Of a stretch of DNA of 64,000 nucleotides, positions 9,921 to 37,196 are shown in pieces. A program made the position numbers and the translations under genes. The notes beneath the pieces are model-generated. The model was not told where the DNA came from, did no database searches, and saw only the letters and a list, made by a program, of their open reading frames with translations. Source of the stretch: Acidipropionibacterium acidipropionici (lineage in GTDB: Bacteria; Actinomycetota; Actinomycetes; Propionibacteriales; Propionibacteriaceae); NCBI RefSeq assembly GCF_001441165.1, contig NZ_CP013126.1:835551-899550 (forward strand), given 5' to 3'. Every line of letters starts with the position of its first letter. Position 1 is the stretch's first letter.

Positions 9921-12900
9921 CAGAACTGCACCTCCTGGCTGCGACGCCGGATGAGCGTCACCTCGTCGCGCTGGTTGCCTGTGGGGCCGTAGTAGTTGAA
10001 CGAGTAGCTCAACTGGGCGTACCCGCCGATGAAATGGCTGGGTTTGAGCATGATCCGGGTCAGCGAGTTGTGGATCCCGCCGCGCTTGCCGGAGCGCTCC
10101 GACAGCGGGGTGTTCATGGTGCGCTCCTGGGCGTGGTACATGAACACGGTGCCCTCGGGGATGCGGTGGCTGACGATGGCGCGGGCGTCGACGGTGCCGT
10201 TGCGGTTGTAGGCCTCCACCCAGTCGTTGTCGGCCACCCCGATCTTGGCGGCGTCGGCCGGGGACATCCAGATGGTCTGGCCGCCGCGGCCCAGGGTGAG
10301 CATGTGCGGGTTGTCGTAGTACTGGGAGTGGATGGCCCACTTGTTGTGGGCGGTGATGTAGCGCACCGCGACCTCGGCGACCCCGGTCTCGGTCTGGCCC
10401 CGGTAGCCGACGGGACGCTCCCCGTAGAGGTGGGCGATGTCCAGGGGAGGCCGGTAGACCGGCAGGTTCTCCCCCATGTCGCGCATCCAGTCGTGATCCA
10501 GGTAGTAGTGCATCCGCCCGGTCAGGGTGTGCCAGGGCTTGTGGCGCTCCACATTGACCACGAAGGCCGAGTAGCGGCGCCCGCCGTGCTCCGAGCCCGA
10601 CCACTCCGGGGAGGTGATCACCGGCTGGGGATGGGATGCGGTGTCGGCGAAGGTGACGCGACGATCCTGGGACCCCGACGCCAGATCGGCCATCGTCGTG
10701 CCGGTGCGGCGCTCCATCTGCTGGAAGCCGTCGGTGGCCAGGCGCCCGTTGGTGGTGCCGGAGGTGGCCAGGATGGTGTCGCATGCCTTGATGTCGGTGT
10801 CGACCAGAGGCCGTCCCTTCCCGGGGCCCGCGGTGGCGACGCCGTGGCGGCGTCCCAGCTCGGCGATCTCCTGGTCGGGGTGGAAGGTGACCCCCTTGAC
10901 GGCCATGCCGACGGTGTCGGTGAGCGGCCCCAGGGTGTCGAATTTCGCACCGATCTGGGTGTAGTCGCGCTCGACGGGGATGAGCTTGGGCATGGTGACG
11001 CCGGGGATCCAGAGTCTTTCGCCGGTCTCCGGGTCGGTGACGTCGCCGGTGGCCCCGGCCGCGCTGGTCATCTCGTCGGGGGTGTCGTGCATGAGCGGGG
11101 CGGCGACGACGTCGGTACGGGTGCCGAGATGTTTTTCGGCCATCTGGGAGACGAGGTGGGCCAGGGTGCGGAAGGTCTCGAAATCGGTGCGCGCCTCCCA
11201 GGGCGGGTCGACGGCCGCATTGAAGGAGTGCACGAAGGGGTGCATATCGGTGCTGGAGAGATCGTGCTTCTCATACCAGGTGGCGGCCGGAAGAATGACA
11301 TCGGAGTGCAGGGTGGTGGACGTCGTGCGGAAATCCGCGGTCCACATCAGGTCGAGCTTTCCGGAGGGGGCCTCGTCCCGCCATCGGATGTCGCGCGGCC
11401 GCTGGTCGGCAGGCAGCTCGGAGGCGTTGACGTCGTCATCGCAGCCGAGCATGTGACGCATGAAGAACTCGGTGCCCTTGGCGCTGGAGCCCAGCAGGTT
11501 GGTGCGCCAGTTGGCCAGCACGCGGGGCTGGTTCTCCTCGGCATCGGGATCCTGGCAGGCGAAGCCGAGAGTCCCGGAGGCCAGCTGGTCGGCGATGTAC
11601 TCGCCGGGTTTCCGGCCGGCCGCCGCGGCTTCGTCTGCCAGGTCGAGGGGGTTGCGGTCGAAGGTCGGGTAGCTGGGCGACCATCCCCGCCTCGCCGATT
11701 CGACGAGGGTGTCGGCGGTGGTGAGCCCGGCGAGGGTGCCGGCCCCCAGCGGGGAGGCGACCTTCTCGGCCCGCGCGCCGTCGTAGCGCCACTGGTCGGT
11801 GGTGAGGTAGTACCAGGCGGTGGAGATCATCTGGCGGGCCGGGCGGGCCCAGTCCAGAGCGAAGGAGTAATTGGCCCATCCGGTGAAGGGACGCACCTTC
11901 TCCTGGCCCACATAGTGCGCCCATCCGCCGCCATTGACGCCCTGGGTGGCGCACATATTGGTGAGCGACAGGAATGTCCGGTAGATCTCGTCGGCGTGAT
12001 AGAAGTGATTGACTCCGGCGCCCATGATGATCATGGATCGTCCGCCGGACTCGATGGCATTGAGGGCGAATTCGCGCCCGATCCGCTCGGCCGCGGCGGC
12101 GGGGACGCCGGTGAGTTCGGCCTGCCAGGCCGGGGTGCCCGGTGCCGTGGGGTCGTCGTAGCCGGTGGGCCAGTCGCCGGGCAGGCCGTCGCGGCCCACC
12201 GCGTAGCGGGCCAGGAGGAGATCGAAGACGGTGGTCACCAGATGGCCGTCGACCCGTCGGGCAGGCACGCCCCGGAGCACCACCCCGGCGCCCAGGCTGG
12301 CCTGGTCGGGCGAGGCGGGCAGGTCGAAGCGGGGCATCGCCACCTCGACGGGCTCCCAGGAGTCGGTGTCCATGACGCTCATCACCGGGTCGACGCCGTC
12401 CAGGTCGAGGTTCCAGTGCCCGGCGCCGGACTCCGAGAAGCGGTCGGCCAGGGTGCCGCCGGGGTCCTTGACGGCGCCGTCGGCCTCCATCACCAGGGGC
12501 CGGAACTCCGGCTTCTCCGGGCGGGTCTCGACTGTGGTGTGCGCGGCCGTGAGGAATTTGCCGGGGATCCGGGTGCCGGCCGCGGCGGCGTCCTGCCCGC
12601 CCTGATCGTCGGACTCGTAGGGATCGAGCTCGACCAGGAAGGGCGAGTCGGTGTAGCGGCGCATGTAGTCCATGAACATGGGTTCGCGGCGTCCGACGTG
12701 GAACTCGGTGAGGATGACGTGGCCCATCGCCATCGCCAGGGCCCCGTCGGTACCGGGCTGGACGCGCAGCCACTCGTCGGCGAATTTCGTGTTGTCGGCG
12801 TAGTCGGGGCTCACCACGACGACCTTCTGGCCGTGGTAGCGGGCCTCGGTCATGAAGTGGGCGTCGGGGGTGCGGGTGATGGGGACGTTGGATCCCCACA

Positions 12901-13676
12901 TGATGAGGTACTGGGAGTTGAACCAGTCGCCCGACTCGGGGACGTCGGTCTGGTCTCCGAAGACCTGAGGGCTGGCCGGGGGCAGGTCGGCGTACCAGTC
13001 GTAGAAGCTCAGCATGGTCCCGCCGAGCAGTTCGGTGAACCGGGACCCGGCGCCGTAGGAGACCATCGACATGGCCGGGATCACGGAGAACCCGGCGATC
13101 CTGTCTGGCCCGTAGGCCTTGATGGTGTGGACGTAGCCGGCCGCGATGATCTGAGTGGCCTCCTCCCAGGAGACCCGCACCATGCCGCCGTGGCCGCGCG
13201 CGCTCTTGTAGGCACGTGCCAGTTCGGGGTCGGAGACGACGGCCCCCCAGGCGTCGACCGGGTCCGCCGAGCTCGGCCAGCTTCGCCCGCCAGGCGTCCA
13301 GCAGCACCGAGCGCACATAGGGGTGGCGGATCCGCGTCGGGGAGTACTCGTACCAGCTGAACGCCGCCCCGCGCGGGCAGCCGCGCGGCTCGTACTCGGG
13401 CATGTCGGGGCCGGTGGTCGGGTAGTCGGTCTCCTGGGACTCCCAGGTGATGATCCCGTCCTTGACGTAGACCTTCCAGGAGCACGATCCGGTGCAGTTG
13501 ACGCCGTGGGTGGAGCGCACCACCTTGTCGTAGGACCAGCGCTGCCGGTAGAAGACGTCGGCCCCCCGGCCGCCCTGCAGGAAGAGCTGGCGGGTGTCGG
13601 GGGAGGGCTTGCCGCGACGCAGCCAGCTGCCCATCCGCAGCAGGGCGGAGGACTTCTCCTCGGAGCTCGTGGTCAT
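9920..13676 (-). pseudogene. narG: Nitrate reductase alpha subunit narG, interrupted by a one-base frameshift
   Basis: Molybdopterin catalytic subunit reducing nitrate to nitrite. From the ATG at 13676 the frame reads THGVNCTGSCSW (FS0 cluster His/Cys set) and PRGCPRGAAFSWYEYSP up to WRAKLAELGG, then becomes nonsense. A second frame, open to the stop at 9920, resumes with DPVDAWGAVVSDPELARAYKSARG. It contains FYDWYADLPPASPQVFG (Mo-ligand Asp region), QTDVPESGDW and normal NarG to the end. The span is 3757 nt, one more than a multiple of three, and the shift lies at about 13258-13270. Either one base is extra (real mutation or sequencing error), or 138 and 1100+ residue halves are made separately. 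Repaired, it would encode about 1251 residues, full length. Confidence 0.93.
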
Positions 13677-25873: not shown

Positions 25874-26893
25874 ATGCAGCATCTTGTCGCCGACACCGCC
25901 CTGAGTGGGCCGCTCGAGCAGTCCCCTGAGACCGACTCGAGGGCCCGCCGCCGCGCCCTGGCCCGCCTCATCATCACCCGGATCCTGGGCGCCGTCTTCG
26001 TCCTGTGGGCCGCGGTCACCCTCACCTTCCTGGCCGTCCACGCCACCCCCGGCGACACCGTCTCCCTGCTGCTGGGCCAGAACCGCGACGACCCGGTGCT
26101 GCGGGCCCGCACCATCGAACGCTGGGGCCTGGACCATCCGCTGTGGTACCAGTACCTCCTCTACCTGGTGCGCATCCCCACCGGGGATCTGGGCGTCAGC
26201 TACACCTTCTCCCGCCCGGTCACCGATCTGCTCGCCGAGTCCATCGGCCCGACGCTGCAGCTGGCCGGGGCGGCCACCCTCGGCGCGGTGATCATCGCCT
26301 ACCTCATCACCTTCGCCACCTCCACCCGCCTCAAGGCCCTGCGGCCGGTCTCCCAGTTCATCGAGCTCATCCTGCTGTCTGCGCCCTCCTTCTGGATCGG
26401 GATCGTGCTGCTGCTGGTCTTCAGCTTCAAGCTCGGCTGGTTCTCCATCGTCGACCCGAACTCCCCGCAGGCCCTGGTGCTTCCCGCGCTCTCGCTGGCC
26501 CTGCCGATCGGCTGCTACCTGGCGCAGATCCTGCGCGACGGCGCCGACCGGGCCATGGAGCAGCCCTTCGCCCTCACCTCCCGCTCCCGCGGGCTGTCGA
26601 CCACCAGGGTCTATTCGGCCCACGCCCTCAAGCACGGCACCGTTCCGGTGATCACGGTGCTCGGCCTCATCATCGGCAGTCTCATCGGCGGCGCGGTGGT
26701 CGTCGAGCAGGTCTTCGGACGCGCCGGCCTGGGCCAGATCGCCGTCCAGGCGGTCAACGTCAAGGATGTGCCCCTCATCCTGGGGGTCACGATCGTCGCC
26801 ACCGGCGCCTTCGTCATCGCCTCCACCCTGGTGGACGTCGCGGCCCTGGCCATCGACCCGCGGCTGCGCGCCGCCTCAACCGCCAGGAGCTGA
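25874..26893 (+). CDS. Dpp/Opp-type ABC transporter permease (DppB-like)
   Basis: 339 residues, about six membrane helices. The N-terminal helix RILGAVFVLWAAVTLTFLAVHATPGD is the OppB/DppB start signature. The LILLSAPSFWIGIVLLLVF segment and the EAA-like loop (ALTSRSRGLSTTRVYSAHALKHG) follow. It partners the DppC-like protein 2 bp downstream. Substrate class is peptides, nickel or glutathione-like compounds; the Cys leader and GST-fold neighbours suggest a sulfur compound. The start ATG at 25874 has only a weak ribosome-binding site, which is consistent with regulated initiation. Confidence 0.9.
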   Translation: MQHLVADTALSGPLEQSPETDSRARRRALARLIITRILGAVFVLWAAVTLTFLAVHATPGDTVSLLLGQNRDDPVLRARTIERWGLDHPLWYQYLLYLVRIPTGDLGVSYTFSRPVTDLLAESIGPTLQLAGAATLGAVIIAYLITFATSTRLKALRPVSQFIELILLSAPSFWIGIVLLLVFSFKLGWFSIVDPNSPQALVLPALSLALPIGCYLAQILRDGADRAMEQPFALTSRSRGLSTTRVYSAHALKHGTVPVITVLGLIIGSLIGGAVVVEQVFGRAGLGQIAVQAVNVKDVPLILGVTIVATGAFVIASTLVDVAALAIDPRLRAASTARS

Positions 26894-26895
26894 CC

Positions 26896-27747
26896 ATGGC
26901 CGTCCTCACCCTCCCCGTCTCCGCCCGCCGCACCGGCCTGGGACGCTCGAACCTCACCATCGTCGCCTCCGGCACCGTGCTGGCCCTGGCCGCCGTCACC
27001 GCCATCGCCCCGAACCTGCTCTCCCACACCGACCCTCTCTTCGCCGACCCGACCGCCTCCCTGTCGGCCCCCTCGGCCGCCCACTGGGCCGGCACCGATC
27101 TGCAGGGCCGCGACGTCTTCTCCCGGATCATCCACGGAGCCCGCTACTCCCTGTCCATCGGGCTGGGCGCCACCCTCCTGGCCCTGTCCGCCGGACTCCT
27201 GCTCGGCGTCATCGCCGCCACCGCTCCGCGCTGGGCCGACCAGATCGTCAGCCGGGCCGTCGACATCCTGGCGGCCTTCCCCGAGGTGCTGCTGGCCCTG
27301 CTGTTCATCGCGCTGACCGGCCCCGGCGTCGTCAACCTCATCGTGGCCATCGGCATCGCCGGCATCCCCAAGTACGCCCGGCTGGTGCGCACCCAGATCC
27401 TGGCCACCCGCCAGTCCGGCTTCGTGGAGCAGGCTCGCACCTTCGGCATCACCGGCCTCCGCTCTCTGCTGCGGCACGTGCTGCCCAATGCCCTGGGCTC
27501 CCTGCCGATCATCGCCACCATCGGGCTGGGCGAGGCCATCGTCTCCTCGGCGGCGCTGAGCTTCCTGGGACTGGGCCCCCAGCCCCCCAACCCCGAATGG
27601 GGACTCATGATCTCCGAGTCCCGCGACTACCTGCGTCACGCCTGGTGGCTCGGCGTCTTCCCGGGAGCCGCCGTCACCGTCGTCGTCATCGCCGCCACTG
27701 TGCTGGGCCGCACCCTCCAGGCCCGCTACGAGAGAAGGTCGTCATGA
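26896..27747 (+). CDS. Dpp/Opp-type ABC transporter permease (DppC-like)
   Basis: 283 residues with the DppC N-terminal helix followed by HWAGTDLQGRDVFSRIIHGARYSL, the signature periplasmic segment. The EAA loop is EQARTFGITGLRSLLRHVLPNA and SFLGLGPQPPNPEWGLMI lies near the end. The ATG follows the dppB stop by 2 bp, and the stop overlaps the ATPase start (ATGA). Complete and intact, unlike its paralogue at 50230. Confidence 0.92.
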   Translation: MAVLTLPVSARRTGLGRSNLTIVASGTVLALAAVTAIAPNLLSHTDPLFADPTASLSAPSAAHWAGTDLQGRDVFSRIIHGARYSLSIGLGATLLALSAGLLLGVIAATAPRWADQIVSRAVDILAAFPEVLLALLFIALTGPGVVNLIVAIGIAGIPKYARLVRTQILATRQSGFVEQARTFGITGLRSLLRHVLPNALGSLPIIATIGLGEAIVSSAALSFLGLGPQPPNPEWGLMISESRDYLRHAWWLGVFPGAAVTVVVIAATVLGRTLQARYERRSS

Positions 27748-29495
27748 GCATCACGGATCACATCCCCGGAAAGCGTCTCCGCGTGGTTCCCGATGACGTC
27801 TCCCCCGATGCGAGCGCTGCCGACGCGCTGGTGGCCATCCGCAACCTCGACGTCCGCTTCACCGGGCGCCGCGAGGTGCACGCCGTGCGCGGCATCTCGC
27901 TGACCATCCGCCCCGGGGAGGCCGTGGCCATCGTCGGCGAGTCCGGATCCGGCAAGTCCGTCACCTCCCGCAGCATCGTCGGCCTGGCCGGGGACAACGC
28001 CCAGGTGAGCGCCGACGAGTTCAGCGTCGTCGGGCGCGACGCCCTGAGGCTGCGCGAGGGCCAGTGGCGCGACATCCGCGGACGCCGGATCGGCTTCGTC
28101 CTCCAGGACGCGCTGCCCTCCCTGGACCCGCTGCGCACCGTCGGCGCCGAGATCGCCGAGACCCTGCGCACCCACCGCATCGTCTCCCGCAAGGAGATTC
28201 CCGGGCGAGTCGACGAGCTGCTGCGCGAGGCCGGGATCCCCGACGCCGAGGTGCGCTCCCGCCAGTACCCCCACCAGCTGTCCGGCGGCCTGCGGCAGCG
28301 CGCCCTCATCGCCTCGGCCCTGGCCGGGAAGCCCGAGCTGCTCATCGCCGACGAGCCCACCACCGCACTGGACGTCACCGTCCAGGCGCAGATCCTGGAT
28401 CTGCTGGAGGCAAAGAGGGAGGAGGGCACCGCCCTGCTTCTGGTCTCCCACGACCTGGCGGTGGTCTCCCGGATCGCCGACCGGGTGCTGGTGATGCACG
28501 ACGGCGTCGTGGTCGAGGAGGGCCCCACCGCCACCGTGCTCACCGACCCCGCCGACCCCTACACGCGCTCCCTGCTGGCGGCCGTGCCCTCGGCGTCGAC
28601 CCGCGGCACCAGGCTGTCGAGCACCTCCCCCGTCCCGATCAGCACCGGCCCGGCCACCACGAAGCCCGTCCCCTCCGACGACACGGATTCGACGCCGGTG
28701 CTGGAGGCGGTCGGCGTCACCAAGCGCTACCCGCTGCCCGGCGGCGGCTCCCGGACCGCCGTCGACGACGTCAGCCTCACCCTGGCTCCCGGCCAGAAGC
28801 TCGGGATCGTCGGGGAGTCCGGCTCCGGCAAGTCGACCCTGGCCCGGCTCCTGCTGGATCTCACCCTCCCCGACGAGGGCCAGATCCGCATCGGCGGACT
28901 GCCGTGGTCCAAGAAGGAGGGGGTGGACGCCGACCTGCGCCGTCAGGTGCAGTTCATCTCCCAGGACCCCCTCGGGTCCTTCGACCCCCGCTACTCCATC
29001 GGCGAGATCGTCGCCGAGCCCCTCGGTATCAGGCTGCGCACCCCCGGGGCCCGCGAGGCGGTCGCCGAGCTGCTCGGCTCCGTCGGCCTGGACGCCAGCT
29101 TCATCGACGCCTCGCCGAAGCGCCTGTCCGGCGGCCAGCGTCAGCGCGTCGCCATCGCCCGCGCCCTGGCCCTGGAACCCCGGGCACTGATCTGCGACGA
29201 GCCCGTCTCGGCCCTCGACGTCTCCATCCAGGCCCAGGTGCTCGACCTCTTCTCCGACCTGGCCGAGCGCACCGGCACCGCCCTGGTCTTCATCTCCCAC
29301 GACCTGGGCGTCGTCCACCACCTCGTCGACCAGGTGCTGGTGATGCGCTACGGCCGGGTCATCGAGTCCGGAGACGTCGACGACGTCTTCACCAACCCCC
29401 TGCACCCCTACACCCAGGACCTGGTAGCCGCGATCCCCCGGCTCGCCACCACCGCACCCCACCAACCCGGATCCCCGCGACGCCTGCCCGCCTGA
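27744..29495 (+). CDS. Duplicated ABC transporter ATPase (DppD-DppF fusion)
   Basis: 583 residues with two nucleotide-binding domains. Domain 1 has Walker A GESGSGKS near 65 and the LSGGLRQR signature with ADEPTTALD. Domain 2 has Walker A GESGSGKS near 357, LSGGQRQR and CDEPVSALD, and both keep the H-loop (SHDL). The linker around residues 285-315 is Ser/Thr/Pro-rich. It energises the two permeases upstream. The short OligoHPY-type tail after domain 1 (DPYTRSLLAAVPS) is typical. Confidence 0.93.
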   Translation: MSITDHIPGKRLRVVPDDVSPDASAADALVAIRNLDVRFTGRREVHAVRGISLTIRPGEAVAIVGESGSGKSVTSRSIVGLAGDNAQVSADEFSVVGRDALRLREGQWRDIRGRRIGFVLQDALPSLDPLRTVGAEIAETLRTHRIVSRKEIPGRVDELLREAGIPDAEVRSRQYPHQLSGGLRQRALIASALAGKPELLIADEPTTALDVTVQAQILDLLEAKREEGTALLLVSHDLAVVSRIADRVLVMHDGVVVEEGPTATVLTDPADPYTRSLLAAVPSASTRGTRLSSTSPVPISTGPATTKPVPSDDTDSTPVLEAVGVTKRYPLPGGGSRTAVDDVSLTLAPGQKLGIVGESGSGKSTLARLLLDLTLPDEGQIRIGGLPWSKKEGVDADLRRQVQFISQDPLGSFDPRYSIGEIVAEPLGIRLRTPGAREAVAELLGSVGLDASFIDASPKRLSGGQRQRVAIARALALEPRALICDEPVSALDVSIQAQVLDLFSDLAERTGTALVFISHDLGVVHHLVDQVLVMRYGRVIESGDVDDVFTNPLHPYTQDLVAAIPRLATTAPHQPGSPRRLPA

Positions 29496-29545: not shown

Positions 29546-31246
29546 ATGACCTCTCCCCTCGATCCGTTCCACCGCCCCGTCGGCCGCCGCTCGCTGCTCA
29601 TGGCCGCCGCCGGGCTGGCCGCACTCGGACCGGTCCTGAGCGCCTGCGGAGGGTCCTCCTCGAGCGCCGCGCCCGCCACCCCCACCGGCAAGCCCGTCGA
29701 CGGCGGCAGGCTCATCTGGGCGGTGGAGACCCAGCTCTCCTCGGCCAACCCGCACATCAACGGCCAGGACAAGGCCCGCCCGATCCTGCGCAACGCCTTC
29801 GACTCGCTCATCTTCCTGGACGCCGACGGCAAGTACCAGCCCTGGCTCGCCAAGACCATCACCCCCTCGGACGGCGGCACCGTGCTGACCCTGGAGCTGC
29901 GTCAGGACGTCACCTTCTCCGACGGCGAGAAGTTCAACGCCGCCGCCGTCATCAAGAACTTCGACAAGCTGTCGGACGCCAAGTACGCGACGTCGGCGGC
30001 GGGCGCCCTCAGCTCCGTCAAGAAGTACGAGGCCACCGGCCCCTACACGGTGAAGTTCACCCTGTCCAAGCCCGACACCTACTTCCTCACCTGGCTGGCG
30101 GGGGTCAACGCGGCCCCCATCTCCCCCAAGAGCCTGGCCCTGTCCCTGGACGACCTACAGGCCGGCGGCACCAAGATCGCCGGCACCGGCCCCTTCACCA
30201 TCACCAAGTACGCCCTCAACACCGAGATCGTCTTCACCAGGCGCAAGGACTACGCGTGGGCGCCGACGGCGATCGCCAAGGGGCAGAAGGCCGCCCACCT
30301 GGAGCAGGTGACCTACCGCACCCTCAAGGAGGGCTCGGCACGCACCGGGGCGCTGCAGCGCTCCCAGGTGGACGTCGCCTCCGACATCCAGCCCCTCGAC
30401 GTGGAGACCTTCACCTCCAACCCGAAGTTCGGATACGTCCGCGCCACCGTCGCCGGCTCCCCGTACTCGCTGTACCTCAATGTCTCGAAGTCTCCCTTCG
30501 AGGATATCAGGGTGCGTCAGGCATTCGCCCAGGGCGCCGATATCACCGCCATCGTCAACAGCATCTACCGCGGCACCTATCAGCGCGCCTGGGCGCCCTA
30601 CAATCTGGTCGGCCCCTTCCAGGATCCGTCGCTCAAGAACTGGCTTAAATTCGACAAGGCGGCCGCCAACAAGCTGCTCGACGAGGCCGGCTGGAAGACG
30701 AAGAACTCCTCGGGTATCCGCACCAAGGGCGGCAAGACGCTGACTGTGACGGCGTCGACCGCCACTGACTTCGTCCGGGAGTCCCGCGACCAGCTCAATG
30801 TGGCCCTGGGGGCCGCGCTCAAGCAGAACGTCGGCATCGACTACAAGTACCTCCCCGTAGATCTGGGCACCGACACGGCGAAGGGGAAGGCCAACCAGTA
30901 CGAGGTCTTCGACAACTCTTACGGCGGCGCCGACCCGGTGGTGCCCTTCGACCTGCTGTACTACTCGTCGGATCCCTCCCGCGGATATATCGCCCGCGGC
31001 CGGTACAACGACAAGAAGCTCGAGAAATGGCTCGACGACGCCCGGTTCAGCAATGACACCGCCGCGCGCAAGAAGACCTACGCCAGCGTTCAGGAATACG
31101 TCACCAAGGAGAAGTACTACACCATTCCGCTGGCGGTGACCCAGGACACCTACGCCTACAACGCGGAGAAGGTGGCCGGGATCGTCGCCGACCCGGCCTC
31201 CGGCGGCCCCTTCAGCGCCTACACCGCATGGGTGGCGTCGAAGTGA
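29546..31246 (+). CDS. ABC transporter substrate-binding lipoprotein (SBP family 5)
   Basis: 566 residues, peptide/nickel-type binding protein (SBP_bac_5). The signal peptide has a twin Arg (GRRSLLMAAAG) and lipobox LSAC with Cys near residue 33, so export could be Tat-dependent. DGGRLIWAVETQLSSANPH and LRQDVTFSDGEKFNAAAVI are family landmarks. A CAAGGAA site precedes the ATG. It delivers the substrate to the permease pair; the ligand is unknown, with an organosulfur compound inferred from the Cys leader and downstream enzymes. Confidence 0.92.
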   Translation: MTSPLDPFHRPVGRRSLLMAAAGLAALGPVLSACGGSSSSAAPATPTGKPVDGGRLIWAVETQLSSANPHINGQDKARPILRNAFDSLIFLDADGKYQPWLAKTITPSDGGTVLTLELRQDVTFSDGEKFNAAAVIKNFDKLSDAKYATSAAGALSSVKKYEATGPYTVKFTLSKPDTYFLTWLAGVNAAPISPKSLALSLDDLQAGGTKIAGTGPFTITKYALNTEIVFTRRKDYAWAPTAIAKGQKAAHLEQVTYRTLKEGSARTGALQRSQVDVASDIQPLDVETFTSNPKFGYVRATVAGSPYSLYLNVSKSPFEDIRVRQAFAQGADITAIVNSIYRGTYQRAWAPYNLVGPFQDPSLKNWLKFDKAAANKLLDEAGWKTKNSSGIRTKGGKTLTVTASTATDFVRESRDQLNVALGAALKQNVGIDYKYLPVDLGTDTAKGKANQYEVFDNSYGGADPVVPFDLLYYSSDPSRGYIARGRYNDKKLEKWLDDARFSNDTAARKKTYASVQEYVTKEKYYTIPLAVTQDTYAYNAEKVAGIVADPASGGPFSAYTAWVASK

Positions 31247-32253
31247 CCGCCACCACCGAGCAGCCGACCGTCCGGGAGGCGGGACCGGTTGACTTCGAGA
31301 CCTTCGGGACGATCTACGAGCCGCGCGGGGAAGCCCGGCGGGCGCCGTTGGGAACCGGGGCCGAGGTCTACCCGTTCCGGGGACGCATCGACCCCGACGG
31401 CGAGTTCCCGCCCGAGCCCGGCCGCTACCACCTGTACGTCTCGGCGGCATGCCCCTTCGCCCACAGGACCCTCATCGTGCGGGCGCTCAAGGGCCTGGAA
31501 GAGGCGATCGGCGTCTCGGTGGTCGACCCGATCCGCGACGGGAGGGGCTGGGCCTTCCGGGCCGATCCCGATCCGTCATCGCCCAGCGGCGTCCACCAGA
31601 CCCTCGACCGCGCGAACGGCTTCGCCTTCCTGTCCCAGGCCTACGAGGCCTCCGTGCCGGGCGCCTACACCGGGCGGGTCTCGGTGCCGGTGCTGTGGGA
31701 CACCCGGACCGGGCAGGTGGTCTCCAACCACTTCCCGGAGATCACACTGGACCTCGGTTCGCAGTTCAACCGGTGGGCCCGCGATCCACAGCTGGACCTC
31801 TACCCGGTGCCGCTGCGCGACGAGATCGACGCCCTCAACGACGTCATTGGCCCGCACCTCAACCAGGGCGTCTACCACGCCGGCTTCGCCACGACCCAGG
31901 ACGACTACGAGGCGGGGTACCGGGAGGTGTTCGAGACCCTTGACCTGCTGGAGGATCTGCTGGGAGACGGCCGGGAGTTCCTTGTCGGCGGCCGGCTCAC
32001 CGAGGCCGACGTCCGTCTCTGGCCCACCCTGGTGCGCTTCGACCCGGTGTACCTCAGCCACTTCAAGCTCAACCGCAACCGTCTTGTCGATTTCGAGAAA
32101 CTGTGGGCCTACGCGCGTCGGCTCCACGCGATCCCGGCCTTCCGCACAACCACCGATTCCGACCAGATCAGACGCCACTATTACGGCACCCAGCGACACA
32201 TCAATCCCACCGGGATCGTGCCACCCGACCCGCGGATCGACTGGTCCCTGTAG
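31243..32253 (+). CDS. Glutathionyl-hydroquinone reductase-like protein (ECM4/YqjG family)
   Basis: 336 residues. The thioredoxin-fold N domain has catalytic CPFAH (Cys near residue 70), equivalent to CPWAH of Xi-class GSTs. The all-helical C domain carries FLVGGRLTEADVRLWPTLVRFD, FKLNRNR and RHYYGTQRHINPTGIVP, all diagnostic. The family reductively cleaves glutathionyl-quinol thioethers. Actinobacteria normally use mycothiol, so the real thiol partner or substrate may differ. A GTG at 31243 overlapping the SBP stop was preferred; an ATG at 31228 is possible. Confidence 0.9.
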   Translation: MTATTEQPTVREAGPVDFETFGTIYEPRGEARRAPLGTGAEVYPFRGRIDPDGEFPPEPGRYHLYVSAACPFAHRTLIVRALKGLEEAIGVSVVDPIRDGRGWAFRADPDPSSPSGVHQTLDRANGFAFLSQAYEASVPGAYTGRVSVPVLWDTRTGQVVSNHFPEITLDLGSQFNRWARDPQLDLYPVPLRDEIDALNDVIGPHLNQGVYHAGFATTQDDYEAGYREVFETLDLLEDLLGDGREFLVGGRLTEADVRLWPTLVRFDPVYLSHFKLNRNRLVDFEKLWAYARRLHAIPAFRTTTDSDQIRRHYYGTQRHINPTGIVPPDPRIDWSL

Positions 32254-32294
32254 CACCTCAATTCCACCCGAGAGAAACAAGAGAAGGAAACGAT

Positions 32295-33392
32295 ATGTCC
32301 ACCGTCGTCACAGATCTCGAGACCGAGCTCAACACCGAACACCCCGAGCCCGCCGAGACCACCGCCTCATTCCCCGAGACCAACACCGAGCAGACCCCGG
32401 ACGGGGCCTTCCGGCGTCAGCGCAACCTCTTCCCCGTGCGCTTCGGGGACGGACCCGGCCAGTACCCGGCCGAGCCTGGACGCTACCGGCTGCTGGGCAG
32501 CGTGAGCTGCGGCTGGTGCAGGCGCCAGCTCATCGCGATCCGGCTCCTCGGCCTGGAGGAGGCGCTGCCCTTTGTCCCGCTCTACGGCCGTGACGGCGCC
32601 GGCTGGCGGATCAGCGAGACCCAGGGCGACGTCGTGCAGAAGTGGGGGTCCGACCGGCTGAACTCCTTCTACGAGCGCACCATCCCCGGTTTCACCGGCC
32701 GCGGCACCTCCCCGACGATCATCGACATCGAGACCGGGAAGGTGGTCACGAACTCCTACCACACCATCGATCTGGATCTGGCGAGCGTCTGGAAGCCCTT
32801 CCACAGGGCGGGGGCGCCCGACCTGTACCCCGAGGAGTTGCGGCCTGAGATCAACCTGCTCAATCAGCAGATCTTCGACGACGTCAACAACGGCACCTAC
32901 AAGGTGATCTTCGCCACCAATCCGCAGGCCGCCCGGGCCGCCCTGGGCATCTTCGAGGCCCGGCTCGCCGATTACGATTTCCGGTTGGATTCCAGGCGCT
33001 ATCTGTTCGGCGACAGGATCACCGATTCCGACATCCGGCTCTTCCAGACACTGTCCTCCTTCGAGCGCAGCTACCGTCCGCGGCTCGCGGACATCCTGGG
33101 CGACGGCAACGTCAAGCATCTGCAGGACTTCGGCAATCTGTGGGACTACGCTCGCGACCTGTTCCAGCACGGCTTCGTCGACGACCGGGAGCTGTACTTC
33201 CTCGATCTGCTGCCCGGGCCCTCGGGCGAGTACGTCCAGGGGCTGGGCTTCGCCGAGGGGCTCGAGCTGCCGGACGCCGCCGAGGCCCTGGCGGCCTGGC
33301 AGCAGCCGAGCGGCCGCGAGGACCTGGCCGGTTCGCCGCTGTACTCCGGCCCGGGATCGGGCGGCTCCTTCGAGCTGTGGAGCCTGTCGTGA
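32295..33392 (+). CDS. GST-fold paralogue with CGWC motif
   Basis: 365 residues, homologous to the preceding protein but divergent. The active-site segment is SCGWCRRQ (Cys 72 and 75), a dithiol CxxC rather than CPFAH. The shared helical-domain motifs include DLYPEELRPEINLLN, FDDVNNGTYKVIFATNP and RYLFGDRITDSDIRLFQT. The C-terminal HYY/NP region is absent and replaced by a Gly-rich tail. The ATG has GAGAAGGAAA upstream. A dithiol site suggests disulfide or thioether reduction by a different mechanism. Confidence 0.82.
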   Translation: MSTVVTDLETELNTEHPEPAETTASFPETNTEQTPDGAFRRQRNLFPVRFGDGPGQYPAEPGRYRLLGSVSCGWCRRQLIAIRLLGLEEALPFVPLYGRDGAGWRISETQGDVVQKWGSDRLNSFYERTIPGFTGRGTSPTIIDIETGKVVTNSYHTIDLDLASVWKPFHRAGAPDLYPEELRPEINLLNQQIFDDVNNGTYKVIFATNPQAARAALGIFEARLADYDFRLDSRRYLFGDRITDSDIRLFQTLSSFERSYRPRLADILGDGNVKHLQDFGNLWDYARDLFQHGFVDDRELYFLDLLPGPSGEYVQGLGFAEGLELPDAAEALAAWQQPSGREDLAGSPLYSGPGSGGSFELWSLS

Positions 33393-34461
33393 GCACCATC
33401 ATCGACGCCCAGCCGCGCGGGGCCGTCCAGGAGTCGATCAACGGCCCCGAGCAGACCGATGACGGCGCCTTCAAGCGCCAGCCCAACCGCTTCACCGCGC
33501 GGTTCTCCACCGGGGAGCTGCCGGTGAAGGCCGGACGCTACCGGCTGGTCGTCTCTGCCGTCTGCGGGTGGTCGCGTCGTCAGATCATCGTGCGGCGGCT
33601 GCTGGGGCTCGAGGACGCCATCTCGATCTCCTACGTCTCGGGGCGCGGCGACGACGGCGGCTGGGTCTTCACCGACCAGCCCGGGGGCCGGGATCCGGTG
33701 CTCGGCTTCAAACGCCTCAACGACGCCTACCGCACCGCCGAGCCCGGCTACCGGGGACGCGGGACGGTGCCGGCACTGGTCGACACGCGCACGGGTGCGG
33801 TGGTCACCAACGACTACCACACCCTCAGCCTGGAGCTGGAGACGGCGTGGAAACCCTTCCACCGGGCCGGGGCGCCCGACCTGTACCCGAAGGATCTGCG
33901 CCCCCGGATCGACCTGCTCAACCAGCAGCTCTTCGACGACGTCAACAACGGGCCCTACAAGGTGCTCTTCGCCACCTCCCCGGAAGCGGCGGAGGTCGCC
34001 CGGGCGGTCTTCGAGGCCCGGCTGCGGGATTACGACCACCGGCTGGCGACCAGGCGGTATCTGTTCGGGGACCGGCTCACCGATTCCGACATCCGGCTGT
34101 GGGTCCCCTGGCCAGCTTCGACCAGACCTACGTCACCGGATATCCCGAGGCCGTGCGCGACACTGCGCTACGGGTCCGCGATCTGCCGAACCTGTGGGCC
34201 TACGCCCGTGACCTGTTCCAGACGCCGGGGTTCGTCGACGACCGCGACACCGAGGCACTGGGCATCACGCCCGGCCCCGACGGCTCCTACCTGGGCGGGT
34301 TCGGTGAGGCGCCCGACGCCGCGTCGGGCGACCGCCTGGCGGCCTGGAGCGAGCCCGCGGGCCGCGAAGGGCTGTCGGGGTCCGACGTCACCGCCGGCCC
34401 CGGAGGGGCAGGCACCGATCAGTACTGGGCGTTCGCGCCCGGCCGGGTCCCGATCGTCTGA
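33389..34461 (+). pseudogene. GST-fold paralogue with CGWS motif, one-base frameshift
   Basis: Starts GTG at 33389, overlapping the previous stop (GTGA). The motif is VCGWSRRQ (Cys near residue 59), a monothiol version of its neighbour. The frame is good through RYLFGDRLTDSDIRLW, then breaks at a run of four C (34105-34108). The other frame resumes with LASFDQTYVTGY and NLWAYARDLFQTPGFVDD, running to the stop at 34461. The 1073 nt span is one short of a codon multiple, so one C is missing: a real mutation, slippage or a sequencing error. Repaired length is about 357 residues. Confidence 0.85.
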
Positions 34462-34471
34462 GGAGGAGACC

Positions 34472-35908
34472 GTGAGCACCATCGTCAGGCCCGTCATCGA
34501 CGCCTATTCGTATCCGCCCGAGGTGATCGCCTCGCTGCGCCCGATCCCGGTGGATCTGTGGTTCCGGGATCTGGGCGCCTCCCGGCTCGGGCGCCTCGTG
34601 CTGCGCCACGCCCTGCCAGAGGAGTACGGCGAGGTGGGCGACGTCCTGGAGGCCGCCTTCACCACGGGCTGCTGGTCGACCCCGGAGTACATCGTCGGCC
34701 TGCACGCCATCGACGCCCGGGCGCGGACGTCGAATGTGTGGGTGGTGGCCGACGACGAGGGCGTCCTCGCGGCGGTGCTCACCCCCCAGCCGCGGTACCT
34801 GGACGGGCCATTCACCTTCAACATCCTGGGGGTGGGGCCGCGGGGCCGCGGGCTGGGGCTGGGCCGGCTGCTCACCGACCACGCCGTGAATCTGGCCCGG
34901 GCCCTGGGGATCGGCAGCATCGAGATCCACTCCGGGCCGCAGATGGCCGCGGCCCACAAGGTGTATGTGGACTACGGCTTCGTGCGGCGCATCGAGCAGG
35001 AGACGGTGGTGGTCGACGGCCACCAGCGGCTGCGCAGCTTCACGTTCCGGGTGCCGGATCCGGTCGCAGACCCGCCACACATCGAGCACGCCGACCCGCC
35101 GGCCGGCGACTCCCCCTTCCCGCCCCCAGGAGATCCCGTGAGCATCACCGCACTGCGCCCCGCCGGGGTCCAGGACGCCGGCCACTTCCACGCCACGGCA
35201 CCCAGACGCCCCGGCCCGGCCGAGCTGCCGGACCGGCGACTGCGGCTGGTGGCCCCGGCGTCATCGCCCCGCAGCTGGGGGGCGGTGCTGGGCGCCCGGA
35301 TCGCCGCCCCCGACTGGGTGACGGTGGAGTGGTCCCAGGAGGTGTCCTCGCCCGTGCTGCTGGACGGCGAGGGGCTGCTGGTGAGCGACGACTGGTCGTG
35401 GATCGCGCGGTCGCTGGCCACGGCGTCGGGCAGCAAGATCTACCCGGCGGCCCGGCGCGAGGAGATCGACGCCCTGGAGCAGGTGATCGACGCCGAGCTC
35501 ATCGGCGCCCTGGAGGAGGTGGTTTTCTCCACCGACCAGGCGGTGCGCGACGCCGTCTCCCGGCTGCTCTTCGCCCGGCTCGGGCTGCTGGACCTACAGC
35601 TGGCGGACCGCCGCTACCTGCTCGGCGACGAGCTGACCTCTGCCGACCTGCCCCTGTTCGGGGTGCTGCTCGGCTGGGACCTGCGCTACCGGGCCCACCT
35701 GGGCTGGGGTGCGGCCTCCCTGGTCGACTACCCGAATCTGTGGAGGTGGGCCCGTCGGCTGGCCGCCGAGGTGCTCTCGGCCGAGGACCGGGTCGCCGCC
35801 GGCCTGGAGGCCGGCCCCGACGGCTCCTTCGCCGAGCCCTGGGGCCCGGCGCTGCCGGTCGAGGGGATCGACGACATCCGGGCCGCGTGGCGGGAGCCGG
35901 TGGAGTAG
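34472..35908 (+). CDS. GNAT acetyltransferase fused to GST-like helical domain
   Basis: 478 residues. The N-terminal half (about 25-200) is a GNAT domain with GVGPRGRGLGLGRLL, the acetyl-CoA loop, and HKVYVDYGFVRR. The C-terminal half (about 330-460) repeats the paralogues' helical domain: KIYPAARREEIDALEQ, ADRRYLLGDELTSADLPLF and YPNLWRWARRL. No thioredoxin-type catalytic motif is present. A GAGGAGGAG site precedes the GTG. Inside, AGGAGATCCC and an in-frame GTG at 35138 mark what looks like a former or alternative start of the second half, suggesting fusion of two genes. Confidence 0.8.
   Translation: MSTIVRPVIDAYSYPPEVIASLRPIPVDLWFRDLGASRLGRLVLRHALPEEYGEVGDVLEAAFTTGCWSTPEYIVGLHAIDARARTSNVWVVADDEGVLAAVLTPQPRYLDGPFTFNILGVGPRGRGLGLGRLLTDHAVNLARALGIGSIEIHSGPQMAAAHKVYVDYGFVRRIEQETVVVDGHQRLRSFTFRVPDPVADPPHIEHADPPAGDSPFPPPGDPVSITALRPAGVQDAGHFHATAPRRPGPAELPDRRLRLVAPASSPRSWGAVLGARIAAPDWVTVEWSQEVSSPVLLDGEGLLVSDDWSWIARSLATASGSKIYPAARREEIDALEQVIDAELIGALEEVVFSTDQAVRDAVSRLLFARLGLLDLQLADRRYLLGDELTSADLPLFGVLLGWDLRYRAHLGWGAASLVDYPNLWRWARRLAAEVLSAEDRVAAGLEAGPDGSFAEPWGPALPVEGIDDIRAAWREPVE
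35860..35908. repeat. 49 bp direct repeat, left copy (3' end of the GNAT-GST gene)
   Basis: CGAGGGGATCGACGACATCC through GGTGGAGTAG matches 37268-37316 with three mismatches. Together the two copies bracket the AAA/DUF4143 gene. Confidence 0.85.
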
Positions 35909-35933: not shown

Positions 35934-37196
35934 TCACGGTCCAAGAGTGGTCAGTGGGACGACGTGGACGCCGTCGGGTCTCCGGCCGGCGGCGCCCGTC
36001 GCCGTGATCACGACCAGCGCCGCAGGAGCACCCGTCCGTTTCGGATCGATCTCATCAGCGAAAGCCAACAGGTTCGCGGCAGCGCCGTCGATGATCCTCG
36101 GATCTCCGGTGAGTTTCACCTCGAATGCACCCCAACCGTCCGGGGTCTCGACAACCGCGTCCACCTCCTTGCGTCCATGCGCCTCCCGCCACGAGTACAC
36201 CGAACCTCCCATCAGTTGTGAGTAGATGCGGAGGTCTCTGACGGCCATCGCTTCGAAATGGAACCCAGCGGCCTCCAGATCCTGCAGCAGGCCCTTCGAG
36301 CTGATACGCAGCGCAGCTGTCCCCAGTGATGGGTCGACGAAGTAGCGCACGGGCGACTCCCTCAACCTGGTACGCGATCGCATGTGGGGTTGCCAGGATG
36401 CCGAGTTGTCAGTCAGTTTCAGCCTGTCCAAGGCATCCAGGTACGCGGTCACCGTCTCTTTGGCCGCGGGGCGATCCGTGTCACCTCCGATATCTGCCGC
36501 CAGTGCGCTCATCTTCACCGACTGCCCCACGGATCGACCGAGTGAGGCGAGAGTCCGTCGAAGACGCGCCGGCGCCCGCCTCGTCGTCCCCAGACTTGGA
36601 ATGTCCACCTCGACGATTTGGTCCAGGTAGTCGGCCAGCCAGGCTCTGGCCGTTGACTCGGTCTCGCCCACGAGTGCCGGCCACCCGCCCACGACGATCC
36701 GCTCGAGGAGCTCAGCGACGCCGAGCGGGCTGCGGCTCGCACGTTGGGTCTCCCCTCTCAACAGTGCCGCCAAGGACACTTCACCGGTCGAGTGCCCGGA
36801 CTCGAACAGGCTCATGGGGCGCATGTGCAAGGTTCCGATACGTCCTGCTCCGGAGTGGAGTTCGCGGGCGCCGGCAGGGGTGGCGGAACCCGTGAGGAGG
36901 TAGAGCCCCTTCCGCTGGAGGTCATCGACATGGCGTCTCACGTGGTCCCAGATCTCCGGAGCGCGCTGCCACTCGTCGAAGACGATGGGAAGTTCGCGAT
37001 TGAACAGCTCCTCCGGATTGAGGCTGAGCATCGCGGCAGCGTTGGGATCGGTGTCGAACCAGATGGAGCTCCTCGCCACCTGCATGGCCGTCTCGGTCTT
37101 CCCGCAACCCTTGGGACCATCGATCAGGATGGCACCGATCGTCGACATACGGGTCTTCAGCTCGCGGTCCGCTACGCGTGGGAGATACCTGAACAC
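35934..37196 (-). CDS. AAA ATPase with DUF4143 and restriction-like C domain
   Basis: 420 residues. Walker A is DGPKGCGKTE (residues 26-35), Walker B VFDEWQ and sensor LLTGSA. A central DUF4143 region is followed by a PD-(D/E)xK-like stretch EVDAVVETPDGWGAFEVKL, of unproven activity. Stand-alone ATPases of this type are widespread in bacteria and archaea, often horizontally acquired, without a settled function. Start is a GTG. The codon and base composition are less GC-skewed than the neighbours. It lies between 49 bp direct repeats and is preceded by tandem repeats that may be operators. Confidence 0.88.
   Translation of the reverse strand: MFRYLPRVADRELKTRMSTIGAILIDGPKGCGKTETAMQVARSSIWFDTDPNAAAMLSLNPEELFNRELPIVFDEWQRAPEIWDHVRRHVDDLQRKGLYLLTGSATPAGARELHSGAGRIGTLHMRPMSLFESGHSTGEVSLAALLRGETQRASRSPLGVAELLERIVVGGWPALVGETESTARAWLADYLDQIVEVDIPSLGTTRRAPARLRRTLASLGRSVGQSVKMSALAADIGGDTDRPAAKETVTAYLDALDRLKLTDNSASWQPHMRSRTRLRESPVRYFVDPSLGTAALRISSKGLLQDLEAAGFHFEAMAVRDLRIYSQLMGGSVYSWREAHGRKEVDAVVETPDGWGAFEVKLTGDPRIIDGAAANLLAFADEIDPKRTGAPAALVVITATGAAGRRPDGVHVVPLTTLGP

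Follow-up and report, generated by a model that had tools for sequence, protein, structure and literature searches.

We analyzed a stretch of 64,000 nucleotides from Acidipropionibacterium acidipropionici (contig NZ_CP013126.1, forward-strand positions 835,551 to 899,550; hereafter the window, whose numbering is used below), which is part of a complete 3.65 Mb single-contig genome. Our subject is an operon in which an opp-type ATP-binding cassette (ABC) transporter (25.9–31.25 kb) continues straight into four genes related to glutathione S-transferases (GSTs), here called G1 to G4, all on the + strand. The transporter comprises an oppB-like permease (25901..26890, start approximate), an oppC-like permease (26896..27747), fused oppD-oppF ATPases with two ABC_tran plus oligo_HPY domains (27744..29495), and a family-5 solute-binding lipoprotein (29546..31246; Pfam SBP_bac_5, E 6e-67). 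The lipoprotein is NikA/GsiB/TIGR04028-like; its best match in the PDB is NikA, and it scores 229 bits against TIGR04028, under that model's cut-off. At loci of the same type, the oppB-like permease shares 92% identity with its counterpart in genome G039, 63% with that in G181, and about 60% with that in P. cyclohexanicum. A GTGA overlap of stop and start codons joins the lipoprotein gene to G1, and likewise G2 to G3, which suggests coupled translation. The operon is longer than its four GST-like genes, and the transporter belongs to it as well.

A sequence-only reading of this region had described G1 to G4 as four tandem GST-fold paralogues with diverging motifs, the fourth having a GNAT domain and no thioredoxin domain. 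Most of that description stands: G1 (31243..32253), G2 (32295..33392), and G3 (33389..34461) are relatives of the Xi-class GSTs, and G4 (34475..35908) joins a GNAT acetyltransferase to the helical half of a degenerate GST, but G3 is not one intact frame. The motifs are present in the genes to which they were assigned, CPFAH in G1 (31450..31464), CGWC in G2 (32508..32519), and CGWS in G3 (33563..33574). Searches of the PDB matched both G1 and G2 best to Xi GSTs/glutathionyl-hydroquinone reductases (lowest E 5.6e-73 and 1.1e-52, respectively), and a structure model of G2 (predicted local distance difference test score, pLDDT, 85.7) has Xi GSTs as all of its top 32 Foldseek matches. In Xi GSTs a single cysteine removes the thiol of a conjugate in the form of a mixed disulfide, dimers assemble via the helical C-terminal domain, and the CPWA motif is strictly conserved in the glutathionyl-hydroquinone reductases (PMC5063366). 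G1 has this motif in type (CPFA), while G2 and G3 (CGWx) and the cysteine-less G4 lack it.

The motif C-G-W-x-R-R marks a deep clade (the CGW clade) that contains both G2 and G3; the fourth position of the motif can be N, A, S, C, G, or F. The active-site cysteine is invariant except in one G3 from the same genus (G198, SGWS), and the second cysteine of CGWC is seen only in the window and in G039. Because the fourth position varies across a clade that includes both CGWC and CGWS, the graded series of monothiol, dithiol, and monothiol sites that had been proposed is not supported as a functional gradient. The HYY motif, which holds the third catalytic tyrosine, occurs in 20 of 20 canonical proteins, in G1 itself, and in five of the eight operonic G1-clade relatives scored, vs. 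none of 42 in the CGW clade; the first two catalytic tyrosines are retained in G2 (Y202 and Y260). In place of the Glu-Ser pair that binds the gamma-glutamyl group of glutathione, the operonic paralogues have N-[DNHS]-[YF], as do canonical proteins from actinobacteria of the same order, and a GPGxGG...W tail private to the CGW clade is found in 33 of 42 members. Judged by its residues (no CPWA, no HYY, a private GPG-rich tail), the clade is atypical as hydroquinone reductases. CPWAHRQ-like motifs characterize another Xi-GST branch (L045, L046, L044, and L067, with a tandem pair in L045), which falls outside the canonical and operonic G1 clades in the tree.

G4 carries a GNAT (Acetyltransf_1) domain at residues 62–168 (34661..34981; Pfam E 6.9e-7) and a GST_C_2 domain at residues 355–427 (35540..35758; Pfam E 3.6e-7), with similarity to Xi GSTs over residues 280–432 (phmmer). 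A cysteine-less vestige of the thioredoxin half persists, with RLRLVAPASSPRSW standing where G1 has YHLYVSAACPFAH. The predicted structure shows no thioredoxin fold at this vestige (residues 270–323 have pLDDT <50), so the statement that the fourth gene lacks a thioredoxin domain is true in practice. Three relatives of G4 from termite-gut metagenome-assembled genomes (MAGs) lack the vestige and have the helical domain twice. Loss of the thioredoxin half is widespread among G4 relatives and, together with the helical duplication in the three MAGs, looks like repurposing. The fusion is rare: a GNAT-GST profile (E <= 1e-40) found it in one of 395 genomes sampled from the class, namely the window's own.

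The frame of G3 slips by one base near 34100, and the remainder, including the conserved C-terminal tail, reads on to 34461 in a different frame. The original frame remains uninterrupted past this point and runs into G4, which makes the open reading frame at 33140–35908 (922 residues) an artefact of the shift; on the available evidence, there is no natural fusion gene. G198, from a relative in the same genus, has no interruption at this point, and intact relatives of G3 are present at loci L080, L047, and L044; G111 and P. cyclohexanicum have intact G3 genes. The shift may be a real frameshift or a sequencing error. The orthologue in L080 (G198, ~12020–13075) is the one that reads SGWS, its catalytic Cys replaced by Ser, and a GNAT gene follows it.

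In a maximum-likelihood tree of 75 proteins, G2 and G3 share a clade with 41 members (support 100/100), where G3 falls into a sub-clade of its own (100/94), and G1 lies apart in an operonic clade with nine members (100/100). These separate, well-supported clades indicate that the paralogues are old and are not recent tandem copies. All four genes are under purifying selection: the ratio of nonsynonymous to synonymous substitution rates (dN/dS) against G039 is 0.18 for G1, 0.18 for G2, and 0.22 for G4, and for the intact part of G3 against G198 it is 0.25, with 0.18 and 0.28 for two transporter genes. Gene content is modular. The order in G039 is transporter-G1-G2-G4, without G3, and the 19 kb read from G198 has G3 and a GNAT gene without G1, G2, or the transporter; a uniform four-gene order is therefore not supported.

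Combinations of G1, G2, G3, and GNAT nevertheless recur in other genera and in another actinobacterial order, which, along with the separate clades and purifying selection, bears out the earlier view that the paralogues are not redundant. G2 and G4 are neither unique to this strain nor under relaxed selection, G3 being a partial exception owing to its frameshift. It is very unlikely that G1 alone matters and that G2 to G4 are redundant, drifting remnants. The frameshift, the missing cysteine of the same-genus G3, and the loss of both thioredoxin half and cysteine from G4 would fit such decay, but dN/dS is 0.18–0.25 throughout, G2 and G4 keep their order in G039 and other genera, and the G4-type loss is widespread and, in three MAGs, accompanied by a duplicated helical domain.

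Relatives of G2 (54–91% identity) were found in Propionibacteriaceae, Bifidobacterium (biavatii, miconis, thermophilum, apri, oedipodis, merycicum, pongonis, and others), MAGs of termite-gut type, and Symbiopectobacterium, an enterobacterial insect symbiont, with one to five GST-like paralogues per locus. Ten of 101 Bifidobacterium genomes have any G2 match, each including a close copy (59–63%), and one has five matches. Plasmid records gave distant homologues only, at most ~41% identical. One layout, seen in Propionibacteriaceae and one Bifidobacterium (L109), combines G2 and the GST half with a GNAT, an amidohydrolase, and an opp-type transporter; G1 and G3 may or may not be present. Another, in Bifidobacterium, has two to five CGW paralogues and sometimes G1, accompanied by a cystine-type transporter, pyridoxal phosphate enzymes of the cystathionine-lyase type, a GNAT, and an M20 deacetylase. 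The Bifidobacterium locus L105/L106 (G301) holds, within ~17 kb, five CGW-type matches, two cystathionine-lyase-type genes, an M20 deacetylase, a GNAT gene, and several cystine-type binding proteins. At the Symbiopectobacterium loci L067, L069, and L072, a cystine-type ABC transporter is flanked by a CPWAH paralogue and a CGW gene; the CGW gene in L072 looks broken. This set was probably acquired from actinobacteria.

Neighborhoods were compared between 37 CGW-type loci and 20 canonical Xi-GST (CPWA) loci of the same order. GNAT genes lie near 19 of the former vs. none within 8 kb of the latter (Fisher p 6e-5), and sulfur enzymes near 11 vs. none (p 0.005). Both p values are nominal given the common descent of the loci, a few of which are also short contigs. 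Counted as sulfur enzymes were M20 deacetylases, Cys_Met_Meta_PP (cystathionine-lyase type) proteins, PatB C-S lyases, and cysteine synthase/cystathionine beta-synthase (CBS). Importers of the cystine or opp type stand beside CGW-type loci and at none of the 20 canonical ones. Further neighbors include a PatB C-S lyase with metX (L054), cysteine synthase/CBS (L037, L044, and L055), and a methionine-synthase relative (L107). Domain searches confirmed the assignments of these neighbors. In the loci examined, an M20 deacetylase and an amidohydrolase of aminoacylase/prolidase type occur one or the other per locus, never together.

These neighbors point to cysteine or sulfur salvage rather than to quinone detoxification. 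A role in detoxifying thiol-quinone conjugates, with the four paralogues forming hetero-oligomers that carry out successive thiol reactions, would agree with the homology to glutathionyl-hydroquinone reductases and with the CPFAH and HYY retained by G1. The hosts, too, come from plant-fed guts, termites, silage, and dairy-type habitats, where cysteinyl-quinones occur. Such a role still seems distinctly improbable to us, as the neighbors are sulfur-amino-acid genes and not genes of aromatic degradation or redox stress, the CPWA and HYY of hydroquinone reductases are missing from the CGW clade, and neither mshC above cut-off nor a glutamate-cysteine ligase family was found in this genome. Cysteinyl-quinones could instead be a substrate of cysteine salvage.

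Protein fusions connect the neighbors more closely. In Propionibacteriaceae and a few MAGs one protein carries both GNAT and the GST half, which are separate neighbors in Bifidobacterium L050 and L109; in B. oedipodis GNAT and a domain like M20 N-acetylcysteine deacetylases form a single protein (L061, 11116–12876). Among solved structures, the bifidobacterial M20 protein comes closest to YxeP of B. subtilis (1ysj, E 3.5e-81; next best 4e-47). YxeP is ScmP, a demonstrated N-acetylcysteine deacetylase: in the B. subtilis scm pathway, ScmL (a GNAT) acetylates S-(2-succino)cysteine, ScmK, a flavin mononucleotide (FMN) monooxygenase, breaks it, and ScmP frees cysteine (PMC12757645). Elsewhere the breaking step is performed by an unrelated 2SL lyase, and the strategy has been called general, with an exchangeable breaking enzyme (PMC12757645). 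The GNAT of such an S-alkylcysteine salvage cluster has its counterpart here in the N-terminal domain of G4. Taken together, the GNAT-GST and GNAT-deacetylase sequences suggest a link among all three steps (acetylate, break, deacetylate); the multi-step thiol reaction proposed earlier is plausible, the fusions hinting at coupled steps.

The interpretation that we favor, tentatively and with slightly less than even confidence, is that the operon is an accessory system through which its mostly oxygen-avoiding hosts regain cysteine sulfur held in S-substituted cysteine compounds. Uptake of S-modified cysteine or short peptides would fall to the opp-type importer, and the GNAT domain would N-acetylate the amino group of the cysteine conjugate. 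Through their single conserved active-site cysteine, G1 to G3 may then attack the sulfur of the N-acetyl S-conjugate or mixed disulfide. Breakage of the C-S (or S-S) bond, with an external small thiol closing the cycle, would release N-acetylcysteine, from which a hydrolase, in this genome a putative deacetylase, would liberate cysteine. Different paralogues would serve different S-substituents. The GST half of G4 would be non-catalytic, its helical domain, which is the dimer interface in Xi GSTs, probably docking the acetyltransferase onto G1, G2, or G3 as a heterodimer. The GNAT fusions make the salvage claim directly testable.

Several observations weigh against this interpretation. Its main weakness is that a search of this genome turned up no deacetylase from the two cluster families: the best M20 match reached 28% identity (39 bits) and the best match to the cluster-type amidohydrolase 22.7 bits, neither of them close. 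No sulfur enzyme was recognized beside the operon in the window, which leaves relatives as the source of the link to sulfur, and among the 37 CGW-type loci GNAT was not seen in 18 and a sulfur enzyme was not seen in 26 (some being short contigs). Family-5 binding proteins import many things, including nickel and peptides, and the GNAT of G4 has no informative solved relative by sequence and is too divergent to be linked to ScmL in that way. We also know of no Xi-class enzyme that cleaves cysteine conjugates without glutathione-like thiols.

Above the cut-off, mshC was found neither in the window's genus nor in the bifidobacteria tested; matches below it (~230–260 bits) are read as cysteinyl-tRNA synthetase because the same matches occur in all control genomes. 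Neither family of glutamate-cysteine ligase was found in this genome. Mycothiol and glutathione were rejected as obvious cofactors on these grounds. Since other cluster-bearing Propionibacteriaceae possess mshC, the lack of this gene is no precondition for the system.

The main rival to salvage from S-substituted cysteines is a thiol-disulfide system for bacteria without mycothiol and glutathione, in which GST-like monothiol reductases turn imported cystine or mixed disulfides into cysteine, with GNAT and deacetylase acting on N-acetylcystine or in a protective side reaction. Cystine-type ABC transporters at the bifidobacterial and Symbiopectobacterium loci would suit it, as would the similarity of CGWx to the CGFS of monothiol glutaredoxins. 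The Xi-class MstX of Corynebacterium glutamicum is indeed a monothiol transferase, but changing its CPWA to CGFS abolished the activity (PMC6815410), which indicates that the CGW clade probably does different chemistry. A thiol-disulfide role would also leave unexplained why GNAT is fused both to the GST half and to an ScmP-like deacetylase, and up to five CGW paralogues suit varied substrates better than one disulfide. We judge this role unlikely, though a serious contender.

Cysteine is often locked in stable thioethers such as damage products, plant quinone adducts, and xenobiotic conjugates. The known bacterial route to it uses an oxygen-dependent monooxygenase or a single-substrate lyase. 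If the salvage interpretation is true, a GST-based, oxygen-independent route in bifidobacteria, propionibacteria, and insect symbionts would account for the way in which anaerobic gut bacteria acquire sulfur from thioethers, and an orphan branch of the Xi-GST family would gain a role. A bolder and on balance doubtful proposal is that the CGWxRR proteins might be a new GST-fold class, which in anaerobic gut actinobacteria, on a GNAT-GST scaffold, would perform thiol-driven C-S cleavage of N-acetylated S-substituted cysteines with no oxygen or flavin, as a third solution beside ScmK and 2SL lyase.

An Rfam scan found no riboswitch or T-box for the operon, the only hit in the window being a thiamine pyrophosphate (TPP) riboswitch located elsewhere (RF00059, 66 bits; 1489–1584, strand −), upstream of a gene whose translation is ThiD-like (hydroxymethylpyrimidine kinase-like). 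The same scan of six related loci yielded a tRNA and nothing else, and promoter and terminator scans gave no result above chance worth reporting. Upstream of the opp-type transporter lie what appear by eye to be modABC-like molybdate transporter genes (~22.0–25.3 kb, + strand), preceded by an open reading frame resembling a DNA-binding regulator. Downstream, an AAA/DUF4143-type ATPase-like open reading frame (35934–37196, strand −) is convergent with G4.

With the Xi GSTs/glutathionyl-hydroquinone reductases YqjG, PcpF, and ECM4, the operonic proteins share the fold, sequence family, position of the catalytic cysteine, Trp after the Cys pair, and two of the three catalytic tyrosines, to which G1 adds CP[FWY]A-H and HYY. 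The G2/G3 clade differs in having CGWxRR instead of CPWA, in lacking HYY and the Glu-Ser pair, and in its own GPGxGG...W tail. MstX (3m1g; PMC6815410) is among the closest characterized actinobacterial relatives by sequence, and a monothiol mechanism is expected in both cases. It differs in its CPWA motif and dependence on mycothiol, its CGFS variant being inactive, whereas this genome and the bifidobacteria tested have no mshC above cut-off.

The scm (yxe), yha, and ytn clusters of B. subtilis for breakdown of S-(2-succino)cysteine and S-alkylcysteine (PMC12757645) are alike in grouping a GNAT and an M20 deacetylase, the latter seen here in the bifidobacterial relatives, with an exchangeable C-S breaking enzyme. 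Differences are the one to five Xi-GST-like copies, a GNAT joined to either a GST half or the deacetylase, and the lack of a deacetylase at the window locus. An amino-acid importer also belongs to the scm, yha, and ytn clusters, as an importer does to GST-like loci. Neither an ScmK-type FMN monooxygenase nor a 2SL lyase is among the annotated neighbors of CGW loci, some neighbors being unannotated and no genome-wide search having been made, and a literature search found no description of such a cluster. By analogy, the GST-like loci would, in the reading that we favor, follow the scm/yxe plan of acetylating, breaking, and deacetylating, with GST-like enzymes taking the C-S step in place of the FMN monooxygenase or 2SL lyase.

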